The position numbers and the translations under genes were made by a program. From the NCBI GenBank assembly GCA_000697475.1, contig JNEU01000989.1:175687-239686 (forward strand): a stretch of DNA of 64,000 nt, written 5' to 3'. The notes under the pieces are model-generated. The model was not told the DNA's origin and searched no databases. It was given only the letters and a program-made list of their open reading frames with translations. This document shows positions 48,446 through 64,000 of this stretch, in pieces. Within the stretch, counting starts at the first letter, position 1; each line of letters opens with the position of its first letter. This DNA comes from Lichtheimia corymbifera B2541 (Eukaryota > Mucoromycota > Mucoromycetes > Mucorales > Lichtheimiaceae).

Positions 48446-49593
48446 TCAACGAAATTCAAAGTTGCCAAAGGAACGTTGTTGGACATGGTTCAATTTCAAT
48501 TCTTGATACCTATGTAGTAGTAGTAGTAGAAGAAGAAATATTGGAGTTAGATATATATATATATATATATCGAATCAATGGTTGCTAGGATACATACAAT
48601 TCGTAATGGTGTCTGTAAAAGTAGTAACCAGAAATCTCGTTGGTGGATCGCCGGTAGCAAATATAATAAAATCCTGCAAAGCTTGCGCCATCAATGTTGT
48701 TGACACGGTGATCTGGTACAAGAAAGTGTTCTTTCCATCGCATATAAACGTAATCCTTATCGGTTGGATCATAGACAAAGCCATCTTGATTGAATACATC
48801 AGCATAGGGCTTGAACGAAGGGAACCGTTCCTGAGCGAAACAATGAGGTTTCAGTTGAAAAGTTTTTGCTTTTTGTCTCAATCCACCTTACTCACCCAAT
48901 GAGCTGAATCGATTTTTTGATAGGCTTGCCATTTACGAGTCAGGAACGAGTATTTCGGCCCCACAATTTCACCTTGGAAAAAGGTCTATTATGTGCCATT
49001 GTTAATACCAACATCCATATTCATTGCTATCGATAGTATCATTACTTGCCGTCAGCTCAGGAAACTCGGTTGTGAGGCCTTTGATATTCAAATATCCACT
49101 CAATGTGCTTTCTTTCAAATCAACGTGCTACATAAGGCCGAGAGAGAACATTGAGATTTTTGCTGCATAGTAGTAACGATGCCAACCATTCCCACGCAAC
49201 TCGATCTCCCTCCCTCCCCTTTGGTCTTGATCTTGGGCATACCTGGATATCGACAACCACTTCATAACTCGTGCTACCGCACTCTTGAATACCAACAAAA
49301 CGTGATCCTGCGTAGAGGGCACCGAGACGGGAATTGGGCAATCGCTTGTTTGAAATGTCGACCCACAGCTCATCTTCGTTGCGTGCTGTCAGTGATGTAA
49401 TGCACCGTTTCTTGCGCATCGTTTTATCGTCTTTGTCGTTTGAGTCATGGGGAGTACTTGGGTTGGTGTTATCGGTGGTCTGATTGGTATCGGCGATCGT
49501 TCTTGGTGCAAGTCGTTTGGATTGTTTGGTGGAGCACACAGTGCGGTCTCTTGTTGATACTGAAGACTGCCGAGAAGTATTGGTGGATGGCAT
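48446..49593 (-). CDS. GID4: GID4/VID24, substrate receptor of the GID E3 ligase
   Basis: 271 aa. GID4 recognises N-terminal proline degrons for the GID/CTLH ubiquitin ligase (gluconeogenic enzymes in yeast). Five exons: 49243-49593, 49050-49127, 48896-48985, 48598-48830, 48446-48509. Conserved blocks: SLYAGSRF-like LGALYAGSRFVGIQ, VDLKESTLSGYLNIKGLT, FFQGEIVGPKYSFLTRKW, DYVYMRWKEHFLVPDHRV, GASFAGFYYICY and a C-terminal LNHV..YEFR-like end (LKLNHVQQRS..FEFR). The intron between exons 2 and 3 has a GC donor (GCAAGT), the only one found here. The last intron contains (AT)10 at 48551-48570. The N-terminal ~70 residues are Ser/Thr-rich and probably disordered. Confidence 0.93.
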
Positions 49594-50183
49594 ATTTGTG
49601 TATGTGTATATGTGTATATGTGTGTGTGAGAGTGTGTGCGTGTATGCGGGAAAGGTGGAAGAGTTGTAAGAAAAGAGGGAAAGCCAAGGAAGGATGCAAA
49701 ATGAGGAACAGAAACCAAATAGGTCAGGTCACGTGTATCAGATCTTCCCACTCCTAATCAAGCCCTGCATCAGTAATACCCAACAATTGTAGCTACCGCA
49801 GAGTGATCATTTAGACAAATAAAAGCTATATTTGAAAATGATACGAAATGGACTAAAGGAGACCGTACCTTCATTGGATTCTGGGTTGCCGTATGATAAA
49901 ACGGATCCATGATAACGTGTTTATATATTCTTGGCTACTCGTCTCATCATTAATAGACCTAAGACTACCCCATTTCCATACATCATACCACTTTTTATTG
50001 CGTCATTCGACGATCCTTAGGGTGTTCCTTAACAACAAAGATAATAAATGGATTTATTCAAAGAGATCGAGAGAAGCTGACAACAATGCGTCAATTGATA
50101 ATCTACGCGTGGTAAGAAATTAAAATGACCGCGAACGAGTGGGGGTCGCTGTTTCTTTTACCTTTCACTACTACAAGCCAACT
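49594..50183. promoter_or_regulatory. Divergent region between GID4 and the ArsC-family gene
   Basis: 590 bp. A (GT)n-rich leader lies on the GID4 side (49596-49650). AT-rich sequence at 49880-50110 is next to the ArsC gene. No specific site assigned. Confidence 0.4.
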
Positions 50184-50588
50184 ATGTCTTCGCTTCCCAC
50201 GACCGGTATCACTATTCTTCATAACCCGCAATGCAGCAAGTGTCGTAATACCAAGACATTGCTCGAGGATGAGAATCTGCCCATTGACATTGTCCAATAC
50301 AAAAAGATGCCACCCACACGCGAGATGCTGCAGGCTCTAGTTGACTATTTGGGTATGAACAACGAAGCTAATACGGACCGTCCTTGGAAGAATGATAGAC
50401 CTTGGGATTATCTTTTGCGTCCGGAGGCTCAAGGCAAGGTATCTTCTTTTGAGGAGGCTTTCGACCTTATTGAACAAGATCCAGCTGTGCTTGAACGTCC
50501 TTTTGTCATTGATTGGGATCACAAGGTAGCCGCTCTCGGACGCCCAGATATGAGTCGTGTAGAAAAGATTATTGCAGCTCACAAATAA
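50184..50588 (+). CDS. ArsC/Spx-family arsenate reductase-like protein
   Basis: 134 aa, intronless. A glutaredoxin-fold protein of the bacterial ArsC family, in which the N-terminal Cys reduces arsenate using glutathione/glutaredoxin. The motif ITILHNPQCSKCRNTKTLLE holds the nucleophile Cys position of E. coli ArsC (NPxC) and a second Cys three residues on, a CxxC not usual in classical ArsC. Arg residues of the anion site appear to be kept in RPEAQ, LERPFVI and LGRP. The C-terminus ends RVEKIIAAHK. In-frame codons run upstream of the ATG at 50184 without another ATG. Whether it reduces arsenate or has another redox role cannot be told. Lack of introns and a bacterial-type family hint at transfer. 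Confidence 0.85.
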   Translation: MSSLPTTGITILHNPQCSKCRNTKTLLEDENLPIDIVQYKKMPPTREMLQALVDYLGMNNEANTDRPWKNDRPWDYLLRPEAQGKVSSFEEAFDLIEQDPAVLERPFVIDWDHKVAALGRPDMSRVEKIIAAHK

Positions 50589-51210
50589 AGTTACGGTTTG
50601 TTGTTGGCATCTGGCTCGCTTCGCTCGCAAAACGTCGATTTTCTGTGGAACGGCTTATCACTAAGACACTACATGTGCTGCAATCACCCACTCACCCCAC
50701 AACACACACACACATATCAACAACACCCACCAACACCCATCACCAAATAAGATTTGCTTTGCTTATTCCATATTGGTTTATATGTTGCTTTTATTTACCT
50801 GCAACGTTACGCTTGGAAGTGTGTTGAAAGATGGGTTTCATTTTTTGGATATTTGAAGGGGTAACGCATGAACATGTATATAGTGTAACACATCATTTGC
50901 TTGCTAGATGGCCTCCCTTTGACACGCCATTGCACTTTTATCACCTTTATTCATATTAAACGATTAACGAAATGTCATTCAGAATGGTCTATCGCTATTG
51001 ATCAATGCTATATCCTTCAAATGGGCGCAATTTATTATTGATAGAGAGGGGATTGTTCAAACAATGACTGTAACCATGCCACGTACACGTGATACAAGAA
51101 AAAGAATATCGTATCTATCCCAGGAGATGGTACATGGTAGACGATGACTACCAAGCATTAAAACAGATGGAGTATACAATGAAAGGAATTGATTCTAATC
51201 TTGGGATACC
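50589..51210. other. Repeat-derived spacer between ArsC and Fanzor
   Basis: It starts with CTGGCTCGCTTCGCTCGCAA (about 50609), a motif repeated at 63471 and, degenerate, at 63617. A (CACAC)n-rich stretch follows (50690-50745), and then a single diverged monomer of the 59570-62470 satellite (next entry). Any Fanzor guide RNA would be expected near the gene ends, so the part next to 51211 deserves attention. Confidence 0.5.
50920..51085 (+). repeat. Isolated monomer of the 270-bp satellite
   Basis: Shares TTTGACACGCC, ACGAAATGTCATTCAGA, TCGCTATTGATCA, GCTATATCCTTCAAATG and GACTGTAA, in order, with monomers at about 59790-59955, 60070-60215 and 60430-60580. The match stops near 51085, about 125 bp from the Fanzor stop codon, and could mark an insertion boundary. 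Confidence 0.65.
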
Positions 51211-54200
51211 CTACAACTTTGACGCTAAAAGAAAGCTACCAATGTTACGTTCCATGCCATTGATGATTCGTCCTTGCGTTGACGCCACTCCTTTAACACT
51301 AATATTGGTAGCTGCCATGGTATCGCGACCAGAAGCGGCACGCCCATTAAAAAATGAAACGCATCGTGGGTTGATGCAAAGGCAACCACCTTGTGACTTC
51401 TTCTTATTTGCCGTTCGGGGTCGCTGGATCTGCCATCCACAGAACGCACATACCTGGGACGTTCTGTATTCATCCACGACGAGTACTGGCCAATGATAGG
51501 AATGTTTGATGCGTAACCATTTTCCACCATAACGAATGAATCCTTTGATGGTAGAGCCGTATCCCATGCCGGAACCACCGATCATGAAGATTGCTGAAGA
51601 CAATGGTGTGCCTGCCTTCTTCGCTTCCTGTGTCAACGCCTTTTTCATACATTTCCTCTCAAATGACAATACACGGTCTTTCCATTTTTGAACGCGATAT
51701 TCTTGTTGACGTTTTTCTCGTGTCATGGATTTGGAATGGTAAAAACGTCTGAGTGTGTCCTTATGGGCATCCCGTACCTGTCAAACCTGTCAGTATCCTT
51801 GTCAAACGCATGTGACGATAATATTACCTCCTTCGCATGTTGTATGTCTCTCTCATTGATTGTCATAGCAATGGGCGCTTTTGCAATTTCAGCCTCGGCC
51901 GTAAAGACATTTGAACTCTATAAAAGTATCAGCCTGGGTTTATTATCACATGGACGCACGTACCTCATTTTTTTTGGCTTCAAGGCGACGACGACGTCTC
52001 AACTCTCCAGTCTGATGGGCGATTGTGTGGCTCTTTGTCGTGATAGGTTTAACAAGCGCATGAAAGGCAGTATCCTTGGTGGTGGATTCCTTGTAGGGTG
52101 ATACGAGATCCAAGTGAGCCGATACATGTTCTTCTATCATTGCCACCGAGGTTGATAGAGTGTGAAAGCCATAATCGACTCCCACAAAACCAAGTTGTTT
52201 TCCCTCGTCTTGCAATTGTGAAATATCAACCGTATGAGAAGGCGCTAAGCACCGCATGTTGTCTGCCGTCAACACGATCTTTTCATCCTCACGATCCTTC
52301 TTCTTTTCACGGGATTTCGCTGATGCATTTGATGCCTAAATACATCTTGGTCAACTTGAGATCACCGACATGTACCTTTGGCTTACCGTATTAAGCGTTG
52401 ATATCTTCTTTTTTTGTACTCTCATTTCTTCGTCTTGGCGGCATATGTCGAATTGCATGTCGTGTAATTGCTGCTTCAATTCCTTTACTGCTTTCTGAGC
52501 ACGCACACAGTCGTCATCGTTCGGATTGAAATGGTTGCCAAGATCCATGCGCTCCTTGTCCCAATGTGACAAAAGGCTCGCGTAAGCCTCTCGCTTTTCT
52601 TCAATCTCTTTAGATTGTCGCTTCAAGTCGTCATTAATGTTGCTGATTTCATCTGCTATCTCTTGTTTAGATAACGATAATAGCGGCTTGGGTTGTGATG
52701 TTGGCTTGTAAGTAGGTGCTAATCGTGATACATCCTCGACGGTGCCTAGGATACGGGCTAAACCATGGTTGGTCATTGTAATCCGATGTGCGGGTTGCAA
52801 TCGCCGATCCTTGCACACGTCCTTCACTTTGTCTGTGGCAAACAATAAACCCATCACTTCCTCCTTATGGTCTTTGGCTTTTGCAATTGCAATTGAATCA
52901 GGGTTTGGTACCATATCGCCGAGGATCTCCAGTAAAGTAGTCGGTGTTATTGGCAAAGAATGTATAGACGCGACAGCTGGAAATGGTGTCAAGGCTCTGG
53001 TTTGCTTTTGGTTTCCTGTTGCAATCAGAACCCTGTTTGCAAGGTGGCAGAAGGGAATTTGCGACGCAATAGCACAATTGGTGTTGTAAACATGGCGTAG
53101 AAGGGGTCTCAAAGAGTGATATATCTTGACGATAACAGCCATTTCATGAGTAGATAATGATTTGCCATCCCATAATGATCCAAACTCGGCTCTGTCCACT
53201 TCGTTTTTCTGCATGAGAATCTTCTTCAAGAAGCCTTTCACTTTTGTTCTCCTTGCTTTAGTATCTCCAAGACCATATCGGAAAACTGACACACGCTTCT
53301 TGGTTGGTTTTGATACTTGTTCTGCTTCATTTGATACAATAGTGCCCGCAGCAGCTTGTTGCTTACGTGCTTCGGCCTTCAATGGACTCTGTATTAGATT
53401 CATATTTGATGATGTCAAGAGTACAACATACCTCAATGCGAAATTTTTCATATTCACCTTCCAACGCTTCTACGCGATCGCGAACAGCTTCCATACGCTT
53501 GATTTTGCTTTGTGATAGACTCTCCGACTTCGCTCGTTCCTCCAGTTTTGATTTCTCATGTTTCTTCGATCGCAATGTATCACGGATTCGTTGTCTACGT
53601 CGGCGTCGTGATGTTGGGGAAGATGCGGGTACAGCTCTTTGATCTTCTTCAGGACATAGCACAACCGCTGTTTGCACCTCGTCCTTCACTGACATAGGCT
53701 CGGGTAAGGCAATTCGTTGTTCGTCAGCTGGTAACAACATGGAAGGAGATAAAACGGGCACCACCAAAGTCGAAGATGGTATGGTAGTATAAGCAGGAGA
53801 GGCGTCAGGATCATTGACTGTTGAAGGTACAACGACGTCTGCATGAGCTTGTGTTGGATAATCAGCAGCGATATTGGTAAAGTCGATGTCATCGTCGTCG
53901 TCTGCAGGCAAGTGAATATCCAGTAAGACCTTTAGCAGGTTCTCCAGTAATTTCCGTATAAGCTTGCCGTCGTTGTACATATTCGAAAGATTTGTCGCTA
54001 GTTGCTGGATCACCTCGTGTGCTGTATATGACTTGATGCTGTTTTGCTTCTTGGTGACTTCACCCTATATTCTAATGTCAATACATGTGTATTATTTTGG
54101 TGACAGTCAAATTCTAATTACCATTATAGTCTTCCAGATGGGGTATTTCTTGTGTGTTTTCTCCCGAGCTCCAATCATGCCAAAATGATTCGTATACAAG

Positions 54201-55013
54201 TATTGGATGTGCTGCATAGTGAAAAGCAAATTGGTGTCGGCTTGAGGGGACTCTGGATAAGTCGTCACCTTGACGTCATCTCGGTCGAACATGGTATCGT
54301 CAAGCCCTCTTGGAACCAATTCTTTGATTGAAATGCATGTTCCGTTGTCACCCAAAGCCGCATATCTCAACATGTTGATATGTACAATTGTACACATATT
54401 GTCATATAAGTCAGTGCAATCAATAGCCGTTGTCTGCAGTCTGGCGAGGATGTCATTCTTGTTTTTGAGATCTGCCATACAAGCAATGTTAAATATTGGG
54501 GTGTCTCGATGTACTCATAATGTTGTTACCTTCTCTGATAATGCTGTTGAATGGACAAGACGCGGTTCGATGGCAGATATCATGCTTTGAATCATTGAAG
54601 GTCGTTTCATTCCAGTCGTTGATGGTGAACCTCTTGATAGCCTCCATGAACACTGAATCGACATTCACTTTGGCAAGGTCTTCCAATATAGTATCCTTGA
54701 TGTTCTTTTTGCTGGCAATCTCCCTACTGGTAGCGCCTCCAGATAGTCCACGGAGTTCATCCATCTTATCATACAATCCTCGAGGAGCACGTTGTTTCTC
54801 GCCTTCGAGTTGATCCTTTGCCGCTTTACACGCTTTCTTCACGGCGTCCGAGCTTTTGACATTCTCAACGTCGTCGTCCGTAATCTGCACTCCATCGGTC
54901 TTCTTGCCTTCTTTTTTCTTCAAAGCCGTTCTCATGGAAGTAGCTGCACGTGCCGAGATCATTGAACAAAAAGCCTGAACAGCTATCGTGGGTAATGTGT
55001 TGGAAGTTGACAT
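51211..55013 (-). CDS. Fanzor (TnpB-like RuvC nuclease, OMEGA family)
   Basis: A predicted 1165-aa eukaryotic TnpB homologue; the family are RNA-guided DNA nucleases carried by transposons. Seven exons: 54530-55013, 54122-54471, 53432-54064, 52387-53388, 51964-52335, 51828-51917, 51211-51777; all GT-AG and in phase. RuvC-I is FVGVDYGFHTL (Asp877). The canonical RuvC-II position reads IGGSGMGYGS with no acid, but VVDEYRTS supplies a Glu (1080) some 33 residues on, the rearranged active site described for Fanzor. The zinc ribbon has CAFC (1087, 1090) and CLCINPRC (1109-1116). RuvC-III is GRDTMAATNI (Asp1129). The long N-terminal part (1-820) has disordered, coiled-coil and basic regions. No stops interrupt it, so it may be functional. 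No associated transposase or serine recombinase lies nearby. Confidence 0.9.
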
Positions 55014-55126
55014 TTTGAAATATGGTCGAGTAATAAGGACCTCCTTCCTTAGTTTCAAGTTTCAAGTTTCATGCAGTTACCTCAGGATACCAATGAGTTT
55101 TGAACTCAGCGTGTTGTATCCTCACA

Positions 55127-55494
55127 GGAATTATTATGGACACCCAGACGCCTTCCATATTAAGCCTACCTATATAACATAAGTTCATTATCCTCACTCA
55201 CCTTGCATCCTTCATTATCCTCACTCACCTTGCATCTTACTTTATGGAGCCGACTAGATGCTAATAACTGGTCAAGTCAAACCCTTTACTAGATCCAGTG
55301 GTATTAATAACTTGTCGTGCGCAAGGAAACGGCAGCCATCATTACCACTGGATCTAGTAAAGGGTTTGACTTGACCAGTTATTAGCGTCTAGTCGGCTCC
55401 ATAAAGTAAGATGCAAGGTGAGTGAGGATAATGAACTTATGTTATATAGGTAGGCTTAATATGGAAGGCGTCTGGGTGTCCATAACAATTCCTC
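55127..55494. repeat. 368-bp near-perfect hairpin next to Fanzor start
   Basis: The left arm 55127-55304 (GGAATTATTATGGACACCCA..AGATCCAGTGGTA) and right arm 55343-55494 (TACCACTGGATCTAGTAAAG..GGTGTCCATAACAATTCC) pair almost completely. The left arm alone has a 27-bp tandem duplication (TTCATTATCCTCACTCACCT..). The loop is about 38 nt. The very high arm identity indicates a recent origin. It could be a MITE, one end of the Fanzor element or a structured RNA source. Confidence 0.85.
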
Positions 55495-55889
55495 ATGTCA
55501 ACATGCTTTCCCCTATCATCCTATTAGGTGGCCAAAACTATTGCTGTAGTCACAGAGCGTATATACCATTGGAGAACCAATGGTGTTGTTACACTTGTTA
55601 TATAGCACAGGCTGGAGAGGATGGGCGTGATTAATACCTGCTCGATGGTATCAGGAACATAAATCACAAAGGTGCAGGAAATCGATGATAAGAAAATCAT
55701 CATCAACGATGCATGCAAAAGCTTGTAATGTTCGATGGATTACATAATCTTCATGTATTTGAGTTCTTTATAATTACAACACGTGGGGCTAATGGGGTTG
55801 CAGGGATAATTGTCATGGAGCTGGGTGTGATAATGATGATTGATAAAGGGTTCTACTACTATTGCTTTTGCTTGGTTACGATTGATCCT
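55495..55889. other. Spacer between hairpin and Rad52-like gene
   Basis: No gene is supported. The Rad52-like gene ends at 55890 on the minus strand; its 3' UTR should lie here. Confidence 0.4.
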
Positions 55890-56719
55890 TTATGGACATG
55901 CGCTCACAAGATCAGCATCTAATCCTTCGTCTTGGTCGTATTCGTCTGATTGATTATCCGACACATCGATGGTTGTCTCTTTCAATCTCTTTTCAGGTGG
56001 AACATTCTCTTTGTCTTCTGTCGTATATGACAAATTTGATCGTGTTCGACGCAATGATGAAGAGGATGAGCTTTGTTTTTGTTCAGTTGGATGCTGTATG
56101 GCGTCTACCAACGATGATGTTTTGGATTTCTTAGATGTAGATGGTGCTGATGCTGCTGCCACGGGTCGCTGACCTTTTTTTGATGGTGTTGAGACATTGA
56201 TTGATCGTGCTGGATGATCGGTAGATTCGGTTGTTGTAGCCGATGTTGTTGATGATAATGCTCGATTTTCTGTTGCAAGAGTCTCAGTGGTATTTGATGC
56301 TTCCATTGCTGGTCGTAGATTGAAGTAATTGCCAATGGATGAAAAGCATTTTTCTGCCCCGTGCTCGATTGACTTATTCTGCGCCTAGATTATATCATTA
56401 ACATTGTGAACATAAATGGCACTGATCCAATTCACTTTACCACTTGTATTGCTGTCTCTTGGTTTGAAAAGCCTTTGACCACACCGCATCCTTGAAACTC
56501 TCGCGAGTGATTGTTTGCTGTGATCCTCACTTTCGTTGTATACATGCAGTCATAACCGCTGTTTCTATGGTGTAGCTGCTATAAAGATAAGCATCATTGA
56601 TAGTTTGGATCCATGGTACTTACATAATGCTGAACCATTTCTGAATGCTCTTGAGTCCAGTTCATATCACCGAAAACTTCATTAGCTTTCCGTGTGAGTG
56701 TGTCGTATGTAAGTTTCAT
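55890..56719 (-). CDS. Short Rad52/Rad59-like protein
   Basis: A predicted 242-aa protein. Three exons: 56624-56719, 56441-56578, 55890-56384; GT-AG, all phase 0. The first ~105 residues resemble the Rad52 strand-annealing core: KANEVFGDMNW aligns with the Rad52 AN-x-x-FG-x-x-x-W motif. Next come a strand pair (TTKVRITANNHSREFQGCGV) in place of the IVRVTL..G..REDIGYG block and a helix (AIQVAQNKSIEHGAEKCFSS) ending IGNYF in place of the AKK..TDA.KR..FGN block. The remaining ~135 residues are Ser/Thr-rich and acidic at the end. Yeast Rad59 is 238 aa. The assignment is by eye and the similarity is modest; a structure-based search would settle it. Confidence 0.55.
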
Positions 56720-57997
<1,278 letters not shown>

Positions 57998-58522
57998 TCA
58001 CATTGTGTATCGTGAACGTGAATACTTGGGTGTTTTGTAATGCATCTTGGATCCATCAGTGTAGCGTAACCGCATCAGTTTGCCTTGCCAATACGGTTCA
58101 AGCACTTGGAAGTGTTTCATCTGTATGTGTGGTATCCAAATAAATATATGTGCAAATACAGCATACTCGGATCAAGCTTACCACGTAAAGCAAGAAAGCA
58201 TCAAGAGGGTATATCCAAAAAAAAAAGGCTTGTTGTAGGCGTAGCTCACCATACTCCTTCACATCACCAACCACATGCTTGTATCTTGAGCAGATATCCA
58301 TGTCCGTGACCCTGTCCTTGAACAAATCTTCGGCATCACCATTCATATATCTTTCTTGTTGGTTCAGGGCACCATCATCATCATCCAGAAGTCGTCTACA
58401 CCATCATTGTTCGTAGTGATTGCAAAAGGCTCCGTATCCACAAGCAAATCAGATAGCGGTACAGCTGGTCCGTCAGCTTCAAGATCTCGAATGGGCTGGT
58501 CATTGGTGTTGTCATTCAACAT
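57998..58522 (-). CDS. Unknown three-exon gene
   Basis: Predicted 138 aa. Exons: 58402-58522, 58182-58354, 57998-58120; introns of 47 and 61 bp with GT-AG ends and matching phases. The protein reads MLNDNTNDQPIRDLEADG.., LLVDTEPFAITTNND, ERYMNGDAEDLFKDRVTDMD, YKHVVGDVKEYGEL, a hydrophobic stretch (FFFWIYPLDAFLLYV) and a basic end (YWQGKLMRLRYTDGSKMHYK). Protein-like composition continues smoothly across both junctions, which argues for real exons. Family not recognised. The hydrophobic stretch includes a run of T's and might instead belong to an intron. A TATA-like TTATAAAAG lies at about 58731-58739 (minus). Confidence 0.4.
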
Positions 58523-59569
58523 GAGGAGAAGGGTTGTGGACGGTGGGAGATGACAAGACCGAATTGCTGGGCGTTTGCTGGTTGGGAAGGAAGGCAATGT
58601 CAATCGTGTACCGGATTCCTTTGTTCATGGACGACGAGCTGTATGTCCCATTGTGCTCTTTGACCCTTTGGATGTCCCGTTTGCTCACTAGCGCAGAAAT
58701 GAAAATAATGAAAATAAAGAAGTTGACTTTTATAAAACGCGCTGTGCCTGTCCTTATACGTTTCATGCAGCTGCTGGTTACTATCCCCCTTTCTCATTGG
58801 CAGTTACTGTCTCCCTTCTCATTGGCTAAAGCTTTACTATTGAGCATTCTTATTCGTAGTTACTATATCGCGATTTTATTTTGGCTTGAGCGGCCCCACC
58901 CACGCTATCCGTGCCCACTATTACCGATAAATGATCGTGGATGGGTGAGTGGGTGGTGCCACGAACTTCCTTGTGCGCATGATAACCTAAGCCCGACAAA
59001 ATGAGGCACGGATAGCGGCACGGATGTCACTTATAAAAGCCATGGATGTAAATTTCTATACATCATATGAGTAATGGGTGTTATCTTGGTACGCTGGATT
59101 TAATGTTATGGGAATATAAAACGCATGAAAAGATAGTTTACTTGACACTGTAAACGATAGCTACCATCCATACCCACCACACCCACTCACCACCCAGCCA
59201 CACCTTCACACACCCACACACCCACACCCTCACACACCCACATACACACACACACACCATCCACGCCATCCACGCCACCCTAAGATAGTTGCTATGGCAA
59301 CATGGTTGCTGTGGTATGATTGTATGCAAAATAGATTTGACAAGTTGCTGCGGTAAGACGATTGATAAGGCAACAAGGGCCGTTATAGCAATTTTATCAC
59401 CGGTACTTTTGGTGCCTTATACTTGCATAAAGTGCCATCTCCTCACGTGCAGCTTTTCACCTTTGACCCATAGCGATTTTATCTTCCCATTGGATTGATT
59501 TGTTCCCTCTTGATATATCAAATAAAAAAGGTTGAAAGAATACGTTGAGGATCGATGTATGTATTTTAC
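58523..59569. other. Spacer with CA-rich tract
   Basis: Contains a CACCCACAC-type low-complexity stretch at 59155-59280. ORFs are short. No gene supported. Confidence 0.4.
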
Positions 59570-60960
59570 TGCTGTTTACAGCTACAGTTACGACATGCAT
59601 GCCTTATATACGTTTCTATGCGAGAAAAGAGTCCCTCCTTTGAGAATGGTTCGGGGGAAGCGGTGGATGTAATCCAATGCGTCACTGTGACCAGAGAAAA
59701 TGGATCCTTCTTTTGACAACATACTAAAAGGACACCCGCATATGAGGCATCCACCTGATGTTGATTCGGCTGCCATCAACATCCCGTTTTTCTTTTGACA
59801 TCCCCATGCACTTCTATCACTTTGGTTCATGTAATATGGTTGACGAAATGCCATTCACACTAATCCATTGCTATTGATCACTGCTATATCCTTCAAATGA
59901 GAGTGATTCATTATCGATGGGGAGTGTGGAGTGAGCAATGATGATTGTAAATCTGATGTGCCATTGTGATCGGAGAAAAAAGATGCTTCCTTTAACAACA
60001 TGAAAAAGATAACACTCGTGCATGAGACACCCGTCTGATGTTAACACAGCGAGCGTTCTGGTCCTCTTTTTCTTTTGACACACCCATCCACTTCCACCAC
60101 ACTGAATCATGCAATGAGATTATCGAAATGTCATTTAGAATCATGCATGGCTATTGATTATTGCTATGTTCTTCAAATGAGAGTGATAGGGAAAGGGGGA
60201 GCGGGAAATGACTGTAAATCTCGTGCGTCATTGTCATGCGAGAATCTGGATGCTTGCTTTGGGGATCGATAGGAAGAATGTGGGGGATCAAACAATGGAT
60301 GTAATCCAACGCGTCATTGTGATGCTAGAGAAAAGAGTCCTTTCTTTGAGAGCATGGTAAAGAAGACGCCCGCGTTTGAGACATCCACCTGCTGATGTTG
60401 ATGCAGCTGTCATCAACATCCCTTTTTCTTTTGGTACGCCCGCGCACTTCCATCACACTGAATCATGTACTACAACTAATGAAATTACATTCTCAACCAT
60501 CCATCGCTATTGATTATCGCTATACTCTTCAAATGAAAGCGATTTATTATCAGTAGGGAAAGGGGAGTGAGCAAAGACTGTAAATCTAATGCGTCATTGT
60601 GATCCGAGAAAAAGGATCCTTCCTTTGAGAATCGTTGGGGTAGAGTGGGGGAGGGTTGCAAAAGATAAAAGTAATCTAATGCGTCATTGTGATGATGGTA
60701 GAAAAAAGATGTTTCCTTTGACAACATGAAAAAGAAAACGCCCGGGTATTATGAGATATCCGCTTGACATGTGATGCAGCCACCTTTCCTGGATCCCTTT
60801 TTTTGACACGCCCATGCACTTCCATCACATTGATTCATGTAATACGGTTAACGAAATATCATTGAGACTCATCTATCGTCACTAATAGCGATTTGTTATC
60901 GATGGGGAAAGGTAGGTCCTAACATTGAGCGTAATGTGATGTATCATTGTGATTTTGCTA
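59570..60960. repeat. Tandem satellite, ~270-bp unit
   Basis: At least four imperfect monomers. The landmark GCGTCATTGTGAT (or a one- to three-base variant) occurs at about 59681, 59960, 60225, 60318, 60588, 60682 and 60944, giving ~270-bp spacing plus a ~90-bp sub-duplication. Other shared phrases are CGCCCGCGT..GAGACATCCACCTGATG, TCATCAACATCCC, TTTTTCTTTTGACA, and CTATTGATCACTGCTATATC. Minus-strand ORFs of 60-90 codons (for example with SKEGSFFSDHNDALDL) recur in the monomers, but none looks like a known gene. Confidence 0.7.
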
Positions 60961-60999
60961 CAAAGGGCTATCCTCTTTTTTTCTCTTTACTGGGGATAC

Positions 61000-61860
61000 G
61001 TTTGGTTGATGTACTGACCCCACACTCTCTTTTTTCTCGTGCTACGCAAGCTAGAGCCATGTATAGACAATGACACGCCAGCTTACCTCATATGTAGCCT
61101 CGTGATCCAATGGATTTCATGCATCATTAACATTTGCTTTTTCGACACTGGGCCATGTGGGTCGAGATTTGGCTTTTGTCATTTCTCTTTTCTATCCTCG
61201 CTGCTCGGGATAATCTTTGTTTATGTGTTGACCCCCACGGTCTTTTTTCCTGTGCATGAACCTGGAATCCATGATTCAACAATGACACACCACCCTTATC
61301 TCGTAGCTCCGTGAACCAATGGATTCATGCATCAACAATTGTGTTTCTTGTTGGGATCCTGTGTTTGTAGGAGGGGGTAGATTGGCCCCTAGATTTTGAC
61401 ACAATGTATTTTTTTTCTTGGCATCCTTTGATCCATACAGTGACCTGTGCCCATTCCCGTAACGCCTTGACGCCAATCGTTTGTGGATCTACAATGGCAT
61501 ACCCTTCCGATATCTCCTTCTCACCAAGCAATGGTGGATCATCAATAACGTTTTCTTCCTCCAACATGTGGTCATTGGAGGCACTTCCCTCTCCCTTTTG
61601 TCACTCGTGATACTTTTGGATTCATGCATTATTCCCGCAATGTCCCATTGCTTATCTCCTCCTCATACACCAATGAGGGATCAACAATGACACTTTTTTT
61701 TGTACACGCGACCATGTAGGTCGTTGCATACTTTTCGACTCATGTTGTCTCTCGCTTGTCACTCGTGATGCTCTTGAATTCATGCATTCATCCCCAACAA
61801 ATGTCATTTTTACCCTTATCTTATGCTTCTACGAGGGATCCGATAGGTGCGATAAAGTTG
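61000..61860. repeat. Second degenerate tandem repeat family
   Basis: Phrases such as CAATGACACRCCA..CTTAYCTC, CCAATGGATT-CATGCAT and TTGACCCC-CAC recur at about 61069-61120, 61281-61335, 61612-61700 and 61740-61830, with ~200-240-bp spacing and much divergence. Unlike the 270-bp unit, it lacks the CGTCATTGTGAT landmark. Confidence 0.5.
61325..61567 (-). CDS. Small unknown ORF within the repeat region
   Basis: 80 aa from an ATG at 61567: MLEEENVIDDPPLLGEKEIS, then EGYAIVDPQTIGVKALREWA and VTVWIKG. It has balanced, protein-like composition, unlike the neighbouring ORFs, but no recognised family and no conserved splice context. It may be a gene fragment captured by the repeat. Confidence 0.3.
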   Translation of the reverse strand: MLEEENVIDDPPLLGEKEISEGYAIVDPQTIGVKALREWAQVTVWIKGCQEKKYIVSKSRGQSTPSYKHRIPTRNTIVDA

Positions 61861-61999
61861 ACTCATTGTTTTATTTTTCTGTACCCTCTAATGCTGTGAG
61901 GATTGACGCATGAATGAGTGAAAGTGTTTCTTTCGTAGCCATTTATGGGATGGTGCCCATTGAGAAATGATGCATGAATGTATGAATTTGTTTTTGCAG

Positions 62000-62470
62000 C
62001 CTCACATGGGATCGCGCTCGTTGAGGAAACGACGCCCGCGTTAGAGACATCCACCTGATGTTGGTGCAGCTGCCATCAACAACCCGGTTTTCTTTAGACA
62101 TCCCCATGCACTTCTACCACACTGAATCATGCAATAAGTTTAATGAAATGCCATTCAGGCTCATTCATCGTTGTTGATAGCTGCTATATTCTTAAAACGA
62201 ATTCGATTTATTAACGATAAGGGAAGGACAAATAATCAGCAAACGTAAATCTGATGCGTCATTGTGATGCAGGGGAAAAGGATCCTATAATTTGGCCACT
62301 TGCAAAAAAAGCGCACGCGTAGAGAGGAATATGGGGGAGCAAACAATGGTTCCAATTTAGTGCGTCATTGTGATCCGAGAAAAAAGATCCTTCCTTTGAG
62401 AATGTGAAAAAGAACGCCCGTGTATGAGACATCCACCTGATGTTGATGTCATAAAGGAGTTCTGGATCCT
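62000..62470. repeat. Further monomers of the 270-bp satellite
   Basis: ACGACGCCCGCG..GAGACATCCACCTGATG (62030), ATCATGCAATAAG..TTAATGAAATGCCATTCAGG (62125), GCGTCATTGTGAT (62256 and 62360). Same order of landmarks as 59570-60960, so the array was probably continuous before the 61-kb family intervened. Confidence 0.65.
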
Positions 62471-63016
62471 CGTTATCTTTTCTACTTGGATCTACTCCTT
62501 TCCATTTTCACAGCCCCAACTCTATATAAGCAAGATGTGGCACGGACCCTTTTCCATCACTTTCTTCTCGCTCTTCTCTCTTCTCTCTTCTCTATACAAT
62601 CTTACTCTCTTGCTCTATGTATTGCTCTATCACGAAGCGCTGCTCTTACAATCAAGCCATGCTGTTACTCTTCAAGACTGCTGTAGCCCTCTACTATCAC
62701 TGGGTGGTCCTTGCTATTACTTTCAGTTGTGGGTGTCATGTTCTTTGATCCATGGTCCTTGCTCTTGCCATATCATGTCATTGGGTCTGACAGCAGGCAG
62801 CAGTCATTGATGGCGCGTTGTCATCAAGCAGAAAGCGTGGGTGGTGTCATGGTCTCTTGGTATTGGAACCTTGGTGCATTTTGTCTACGGGTCTTGGTCA
62901 TGCACACTATTGCACTGGTGTGACAACATGCAGGCGTTATCTTTTCTGGTGTTATCGTCATCAAGTGAAGGATTCTTTTTGCTCAAGTCGACGGTCAAGT
63001 TCCTTGTTCATGGTCC
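62471..63016. promoter_or_regulatory. TATA and CT-rich initiator region
   Basis: CTATATAAG at about 62521-62529, followed 40 bp later by a long TCTTCTC tract (62560-62600), looks like a strong fungal promoter. Several short ORFs follow, but I could not build a coherent gene until 63017. Confidence 0.35.
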
Positions 63017-63293
63017 ATGGCCAAGATGGTGGTCAAGTTCCTTGTTCAGCAAGGATTGTTCCTATTTATTATTTATTCGGTGTCCCTCGTCTCCACTCGC
63101 CTCCGCCTTTCCCCTTTCCCACTCTTATCCACGTAAGCTTATCGTGTTGGTCTCATGTGTCTACTTGGTTATGCTGACATCTTCCAATAGCAGGGATAAA
63201 ACAACGGCACAGCCACCACCACCGAAGCCCTCCCCTAACCACGGAGAGGCGACGGATGTAGGGTATACCCCTGCGTTCCCTCGGGGTATGTAA
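63017..63293 (+). CDS. Small predicted secreted or membrane-anchored peptide
   Basis: Predicted 72 aa. Exons 63017-63132 and 63191-63293; the 58-bp intron has GTAAGC, a GCTGAC branch-like site and ATAG, and the phase is kept. The start context CCATGG is good. The N-terminus is hydrophobic (MAKMVVKFLVQQGLFLFIIY), then SVSLVSTRLRLSPFPLLSTR, then a proline-rich hydrophilic end (TTAQPPPPKPSPNHGE..). No cysteines. Family unknown. Earlier exons may exist, since the open frame has no ATG upstream and the promoter-like region is 500 bp away. Confidence 0.35.
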
Positions 63294-64000
63294 TGGTATC
63301 TGGGTATTGTGATCTTTCATTATTGATACTAACAACATTCTTTTACTATGGTTCTTCTTCCGTGATCTCTTTGGTCTTTGTTTCCTTTTTGGTTATCTTT
63401 TATTCCTTTTATGGATTACTTCATCTTATCAACATTCAATTATTTTAATAATAAAGACTAGTGCTCCAACTGGCTCGCTTCGCTCGCTAAACGTCGGTTT
63501 TTTGTGGCAGGGCTTAACACTATGTATTCGGCAATGGGCTTGCAATAAGCTCAAATCTTTAAGAAACCACACTTGTGTTGGGGCTACATAAATGTAACTT
63601 GAGAAGCCATCCAACTGATTGCTTCGCTCGTAAACGTCGATTTTGTGAGGAAGGGATTATCATTAGGGGCAAAAGAATGCATTGGGGAAAAGCATGAATA
63701 GGATTGTTGGCTGCAGGATCAATGTGTAACCATGGGGAAAGTAATAGTTCATTGGATGGAGAAGCTCATTGTACCATCCACTCACCCACCACCACCCACC
63801 ACCACTCACCGCCACTCACCGCCACACCCACACCCATCCACTATCGTTCATCGCTTTAGTTAGTTATAAAAGTGTTGCATGTGAAAAGGCGTGCAGCCAT
63901 TGAATTGACGCGATTTATTGAAAGGAAAAAGGTGTCCCTTGATATGGATGCTCATGCCCTCTCCAAAGTTAAAAGCCAAGGATTCAATTGTATGACCTTA
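63294..64000. repeat. GCTTCGCTCG motif repeats and C-rich tract
   Basis: CTGGCTCGCTTCGCTCGCTA at 63471 and CTGATTGCTTCGCTCGTAAA at 63616 are each followed by ACGTCGRTTTT and TGTGGCAGGGCTTA-like sequence, as at 50609. A CACCCACCAC-type tract (63775-63840) follows, mirroring the order at 50609-50745. No gene seen up to the window end. Confidence 0.5.

Follow-up and report, generated by a model that had tools for sequence, protein, structure and literature searches.

A stretch of 64,000 nucleotides from Lichtheimia corymbifera B2541 (here called the window; positions 175687 to 239686 of contig C317 in a 35-Mb assembly of 432 contigs) contains, with a probability of about 0.75, an intact gene whose product belongs to the TnpB/Fanzor superfamily as a divergent, Fanzor1-like member, with a 490-residue extra part at the N terminus of the protein and a Helitron-type 3' tail close behind the gene. 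Fanzors are eukaryotic relatives of TnpB and Cas12. By analogy with the characterized Fanzors, the core of the protein would bind a guide RNA transcribed past the stop codon and, thus guided, would recognize matching DNA and cut it at the RuvC site. More speculatively, the cutting of an element-free site, followed by repair from an element-bearing copy, would favor retention or spread of the element, and at a guess the N-terminal part may add a contact with the host or with nucleic acid.

Gene model and active-site motifs

The gene was reconstructed on the minus strand, from an ATG at 55013 to 51211, as seven exons of 3498 nucleotides in all, and the spliced frame is open over 1165 amino acids, its sole stop being the terminal one. 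All six introns are of the GT-AG type and 43 to 58 nucleotides long, and CTRAY-like stretches were read by eye near their 3' ends. Intron 6 has two close acceptors, of which the second keeps the frame and the first leads to an early stop; the splice sites throughout are predictions from the sequence. The extra N-terminal part starts in exon 1 (54530 to 55013), continues through exon 2 (54122 to 54471), and ends in exon 3 (53432 to 54064). Exon 4 (52387 to 53388) encodes residues 490 to 823, exon 5 (51964 to 52335) contributes RuvC-I, exon 6 (51828 to 51917) belongs to the spliced model, and exon 7 (51211 to 51777) holds the remaining active-site motifs and the stop. An intact seven-exon gene was what the sequence-only reading had proposed, and the model upholds this together with every residue position given there. 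That reading also took the six introns as a sign of long residence in the nuclear genome, which fits a paralogue on contig C330 with introns at corresponding positions; the comparison covers the first four introns, near the ends of open frames, with exact splice sites partly uncertain.

In the spliced protein, RuvC-I is represented by GVDYG with D877 and RuvC-III by D1129, and the RuvC-II segment, IGGSGMG at 1043 to 1049, is glycine-rich and lacks an acid. A displaced glutamate, E1080, lies ahead of a four-cysteine zinc ribbon that opens with CAFC at 1087 to 1090 and has its last zinc cysteine at 1116; six residues separate E1080 from C1087. This is the Ealt arrangement, with a glutamate six residues before the zinc ribbon and none at the canonical place. 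G1044 precedes E1080 by 36 residues, the same distance as from G500 to E536 in SPu-1-1p, and there are 205 residues from D877 to the TS pair and 11 from the last cysteine to RD. The pattern D-X(125,275)-[TS][TS]XX-C4-X(5,50)-RD, the TnpB/Fanzor C-terminal motif of Bao and Jurka (PMC3627910, in the excerpt that also gives G500 and E536), is matched exactly by the window protein and by P0002, a 735-residue hypothetical protein (K492DRAFT_241264) from Lichtheimia hyalospora FSU 10163. Of 411 window stretches that run for 60 or more amino acids without a stop, 1 contains the shorter motif E-[TS][TS]-C4-RD, and 20000 shuffles of the window protein never produced the full motif. At the level of sequence, this exact spacing is the firmest link of the protein to TnpB and Fanzor, and it bears out the earlier claim that E1080 replaces a missing RuvC-II acid.

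The corresponding claim for RuvC-I stood in part. GVDYG and Asp877 are where they were said to be, but the published Fanzor fingerprint at this site, DPG, which is called near exclusive in Fanzors in an excerpt of PMC10711439, is absent; all three sequences that cover the region (window, C330, and P0002) have DYG. Since RuvC-I reads DYG and not DPG, the protein falls outside strict Fanzor membership, and we file it as a Fanzor1-like variant. The same excerpt prints two search patterns that permit 120 to 160 residues after the motif, and both miss the window protein because about 202 residues lie between its RuvC-I aspartate and the glutamate.

Homologues and the long N-terminal part

When PDB sequences were searched with profile A3, SpuFz1 came first (E = 1.8e-4, positions 291 to 499), in an alignment that pairs DEYRTSQVC with DEYKTSSVC and includes the RD motif; Cas12f (0.0052) and unrelated helical proteins (0.021) followed. 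Three other queries put Cas12f first, namely, profile A1 (E = 0.011, with SpuFz1 at 0.032), profile A6 (0.0083, with SpuFz1 at 0.48), and P0002 alone (0.11, with SpuFz1 absent), and the full spliced protein searched alone against the PDB found neither Fanzor nor Cas12f. Pfam TNB (PF07282) gave sub-threshold matches to exon 7 (E = 0.0061) and P0002 (0.00073) and matched each of the four A6 members (best E = 2e-4), none of which was shown to exceed the cut-off. PHROG 506 "transposase" (E = 0.0016), PADLOC Cas12u3 (0.021), and NCBIfam guided_TnpB (0.051, on a relic on C415) fell, like TNB, on the region of the zinc ribbon and RuvC-III; the remaining families in the same match tables were weak and unrelated. 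The profile link to Fanzor/TnpB that the earlier reading implied was thus recovered with A3 but not in Pfam or NCBIfam, where no match reached a curated cut-off, nor with the queries that favored Cas12f. One PDB profile and the exact motif spacing together support the family assignment. An AlphaFold model of P0002 (six rows; pLDDT 49.8, pTM 0.27) was unusable.

In the large protein database, a query of residues 560 to 1165 found no homologue among 8000 candidates scored, profile A1 found three (P0001 to P0003; 7996 candidates scored), and profile A3 found P0002 only (7113 candidates scored). The alignments of P0001 and P0003 are confined to exon 4. P0002 is 37% identical to the window protein across residues 430 to 1155 and shares every catalytic motif as well as DYG, but as deposited it lacks the N-terminal part. 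The longest contig carrying it is 3243 bases, so its start may be cut.

Residues 490 to 1165 make up a normal-sized Fanzor core and residues 1 to 490 an extra part. According to an excerpt of PMC11423790, most Fz1 proteins have 600 to 700 amino acids, although length is not strictly defining; the whole window protein lies outside that range, and the portion from residue 490 on has 676. The N terminus had been called unusually long, and the 490-residue excess agrees with that. Residues 1 to 333, which are 35% identical in the C330 paralogue, are followed by an acidic linker rich in P, S, and T (about 334 to 430) and by a basic stretch (431 to 490) that may hold a nuclear signal. Against Pfam and the PDB, the N-terminal part gave best E values of 0.056 and 0.46, respectively, and the exon-1 piece of C330 matched HisKA_2 at 0.0097, below that family's cut-off.

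The size of the core raises the question of whether there are two genes here, with exons 1 to 3 encoding a separate upstream protein and a normal-sized Fanzor starting in exon 3, for example at M402. P0002 aligns from residue 430 only, the 676 residues are the usual Fz1 size, and two other contigs, C396 with exons 1 to 3 and C340 with part of them, lack the nuclease half. On the other side, no stop separates the two parts in the window, in the gene model of the C330 paralogue the parts follow each other in this order and the N-terminal frame is unbroken, and the start of P0002 may be missing for the reason given above. We consider two genes unlikely.

Cas12f's rank above SpuFz1 with A1, A6, and P0002 bears on another origin, in which an Ealt, non-DPG TnpB was acquired separately from the known Fanzors. 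Such an origin would suit the DYG of all three sequences and a separate Ealt clade, described in an excerpt of PMC10711439, that has a hydrophobic residue there. However, the glycine-to-glutamate spacing is that of Fanzor1, SpuFz1 is the best match of profile A3, and a weak search of bacterial, archaeal, and viral contigs, with two short peptide patterns each, found no relative, so that separate acquisition seems as improbable as a division into two genes. We suggest only tentatively, and with a little less doubt, that the gene belongs to a separate Mucorales Fanzor lineage, perhaps the result of an Ealt TnpB entering eukaryotes independently; the lineage would be Helitron-carried, have DYG and an N terminus matching nothing in Pfam or the PDB, and be missed by surveys built on DPG or on a spacing of 120 to 160 residues. 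In the open-licence PMC literature, Fanzor was not found together with Lichtheimia or Mucoromycota; it does occur together with Mucor, in one paper, and with Helitron, in four.

Copies, selection, and the Helitron-type tail

Other copies and relics in the same genome rule out a single-copy gene. Exon 7 recurs on C106 and C264 at 96% and on C330 at 50%, with weaker relics on C415, C419, and C314, the last decayed. C106 and C264 have about 3.5 kb in common at 99 to 100% and both begin at a contig edge, and they may therefore be one locus. Exons 1 to 3 are found at 93% on C396, part of them at 95% on C340, and exon 1 at 93% on C181; further N-terminal matches, to exon 2, lie at C181:87204 and C391:969. 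The C330 paralogue aligns over residues 13 to 870 at 30% and also in the RuvC exons, and it is the only place besides the window with the RuvC-I exon, there split across two frames. Parts of 54456 to 59215 and piece L038 4273 to 7800 recur at C181 at about 91 to 94%, where the Fanzor breaks off behind exon 1, as a segmental duplication or a second haplotype. A second Fanzor-like family is present as relics (VVDEYNTTKTC, GRDASGAENI; pieces L039 4251 to 4886 and L040 4413 to 4856).

Over 219 codons, the window differs from the 3' copies on C106/C264 by a dS of 0.201 and a dN of 0.019 (dN/dS 0.094), and purifying selection acts on the last two exons. The dN/dS values against C396 and C181 are 0.44 and 0.43. 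Between C396 and the window, the exons are less alike (94.1%) than the non-coding parts (98.0%), for which gene conversion may be the cause. The copies are also mosaic: at 39 columns of 54456 to 55207, C396 and C181 are alike and the window differs from both, and 51600 to 51966 differs from C106 by 1 mismatch in 367, compared with 98 in 1329 for the aligned whole. These patterns indicate gene conversion or recombination among copies. The flanks of C317 and C181 diverge by 49/1437 plus nine indels, and when neutral decay was simulated at these flank rates, with the flank assumed neutral and the nine indels as basis, 0 of 4000 genes stayed intact (stops alone leave 8.1%). Gene conversion can restore a frame, which weakens the argument from neutral decay.

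The tail (50608 to 51073, minus strand) starts 137 bp past the stop of the gene. Its bases 50611 to 51047 or to 51073 are also present, nearly whole, at ten loci besides C106/C264 (C391, C396, C285, C257, C222, C226, C203, C407, C34, and C330), nine of them on contigs with no exon 7 match, and C143 and C163 have partial copies; on C330 the tail lies upstream of that contig's own Fanzor, in the opposite orientation. By themselves, the final 51 or so bases are repeated at many further loci, including C396, C391, and C340, which have terminal bases 3 to 53 of the tail query. On C396 and C391, a Helitron_like_N domain lies no more than about 3.5 kb from the tail end, and the two would form one element. 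The tail thus shares a 3' terminal sequence with RepHel Helitrons, as a non-autonomous Helitron does. Helitron_like_N is whole at C84, C391, and C73, each time interrupted by two in-frame stops, which may represent introns. On C396 (E = 7.6e-10) it covers positions 1 to 59 of 191 only; after the cut come half of a palindrome, exons 1 to 3, and a stretch in which we recognize, by eye, the terminal part of a Helitron helicase and to which Pfam gave no match. Lying inside this Helitron gene, the Fanzor exons indicate that part of the gene was joined into a Helitron.

Within the subset of listed places whose ends were read, CTAG or CTAA closes 5 of 11 long tails (C391, C257, C203, C34, and C396, as against the window, C106, C264, C222, C285, and C226), and CTAG closes 7 of 10 short motifs. 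The window copy has no CTRR 3' end, and since related ends carry CTAG, it may have a damaged one. No 5' end of a carrying element was found at the window locus, and the flank at 49000 to 50620 has no second full copy in the genome that could serve as an empty site. It had been noted earlier that no transposase sits beside the gene. For the eight neighboring ORFs scanned this holds; the part considered ran from 38 kb on, and of the ORFs between 38 and 50.6 kb the scan took in the ArsC-family one. A Helitron-type tail nevertheless follows the gene, and a relic of it interrupts the C396 Helitron_like_N gene.

Several further features surround the gene. An ArsC-family gene (50124 to 50588, E = 1.1e-6) ends about 20 bp before the tail. 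Upstream of the Fanzor-like gene lies a near-perfect palindrome (55126 to 55493), one arm of which contains a tandem duplication of 27 bp. Related copies are on C181, C290, C142, C361, C377, C221, C370, C197, and C247, besides the half on C396; it is a foldback or MITE-like element, probably separate from the gene. A (CAT)n array of 49 units occupies 57085 to 57232, and the region from 59600 to 64000, adjoining the contig end, has several Helitron tail copies and a CTAG Helitron end near 63467.

Directly past the stop, the block at 51096 to 51210 (minus strand) is near-identical in C106, and its position suits a guide RNA. RNA folding past the stop was not unusual in three window pieces and one C106 piece (z = -0.53, -0.09, 0.20, and 0.74). 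The 15 variable bases that follow this conserved block, at 51076 to 51090, were rejected as a guide, as the genome has no exact match to them other than their own site; if one mismatch is tolerated, there are 4 places in all, compared with 8 for a reversed control. An Rfam search over 50400 to 55700 gave one sub-threshold miRNA match, on the palindrome, which we took as chance.

The gene could also have been domesticated by the host and no longer serve a mobile element. The window holds the only copy seen whole and intact (C106 and C264 being cut by contig ends), it has stayed intact through the divergence between C317 and C181, it shows purifying selection, and it lacks a terminal CTAG. Against this stand the 96% identical exon 7 copies with the same tail, the several relics, and the tail still in place at the window, which make domestication distinctly unlikely. 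Least probable of all is that the gene is a passenger without activity, its frame still open through chance or because it is recent: the guide RNA is a candidate only, drawing no support from 3' folding or genome matches, and other copies are broken (C330, C314), but the dN/dS of 0.094 and the 0 of 4000 simulated survivals speak against it.

Comparison with known Fanzors

Taken as a Fanzor1-like gene with a Helitron-type tail, the locus would matter in three respects. An intact variant that breaks both the DPG fingerprint and the published spacing would show that pattern-based surveys undercount the family. The extra N-terminal part may be an adaptation to the host, and so may an insertion in PpFz1 from Parasitella that binds cyclophilin, described in an excerpt of PMC11423790. 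A Fanzor adjoining the end of a rolling-circle Helitron would give eukaryotes a situation like that of TnpB next to TnpA, a single-strand transposase, for which an excerpt of PMC10432273, which also mentions Helitrons, draws a cut-and-copy parallel; the pairing would make that idea testable in a fungus.

Like SpuFz1 and the other Fanzor1 proteins, the window protein is eukaryotic, stands in a transposable context, and has the RuvC D-E-D set with a displaced E, a G 36 residues earlier, a C4 zinc ribbon, and RD. It differs from Fanzor1 in having DYG in place of DPG, a distance of about 202 residues from D to E, and the 490-residue extra N-terminal part, and its gene has six introns, whereas the SPu-1 protein is one open frame in the excerpt of PMC3627910. 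Those Fanzor1 elements from Mucor, Rhizopus, and Phycomyces, of the same fungal order as the window, that the results text of that paper describes are MuDR-like, in part with a Crypton or Harbinger, or unclassified. A parallel in gene structure and Helitron link exists with Chlamydomonas CRe-1, 2, and 3, described in the same excerpt as multi-exon Fanzor1 genes on non-autonomous Helitrons; those elements are Helitron2 with known ends, whereas the ends related to the window's tail are of the CTAG type.
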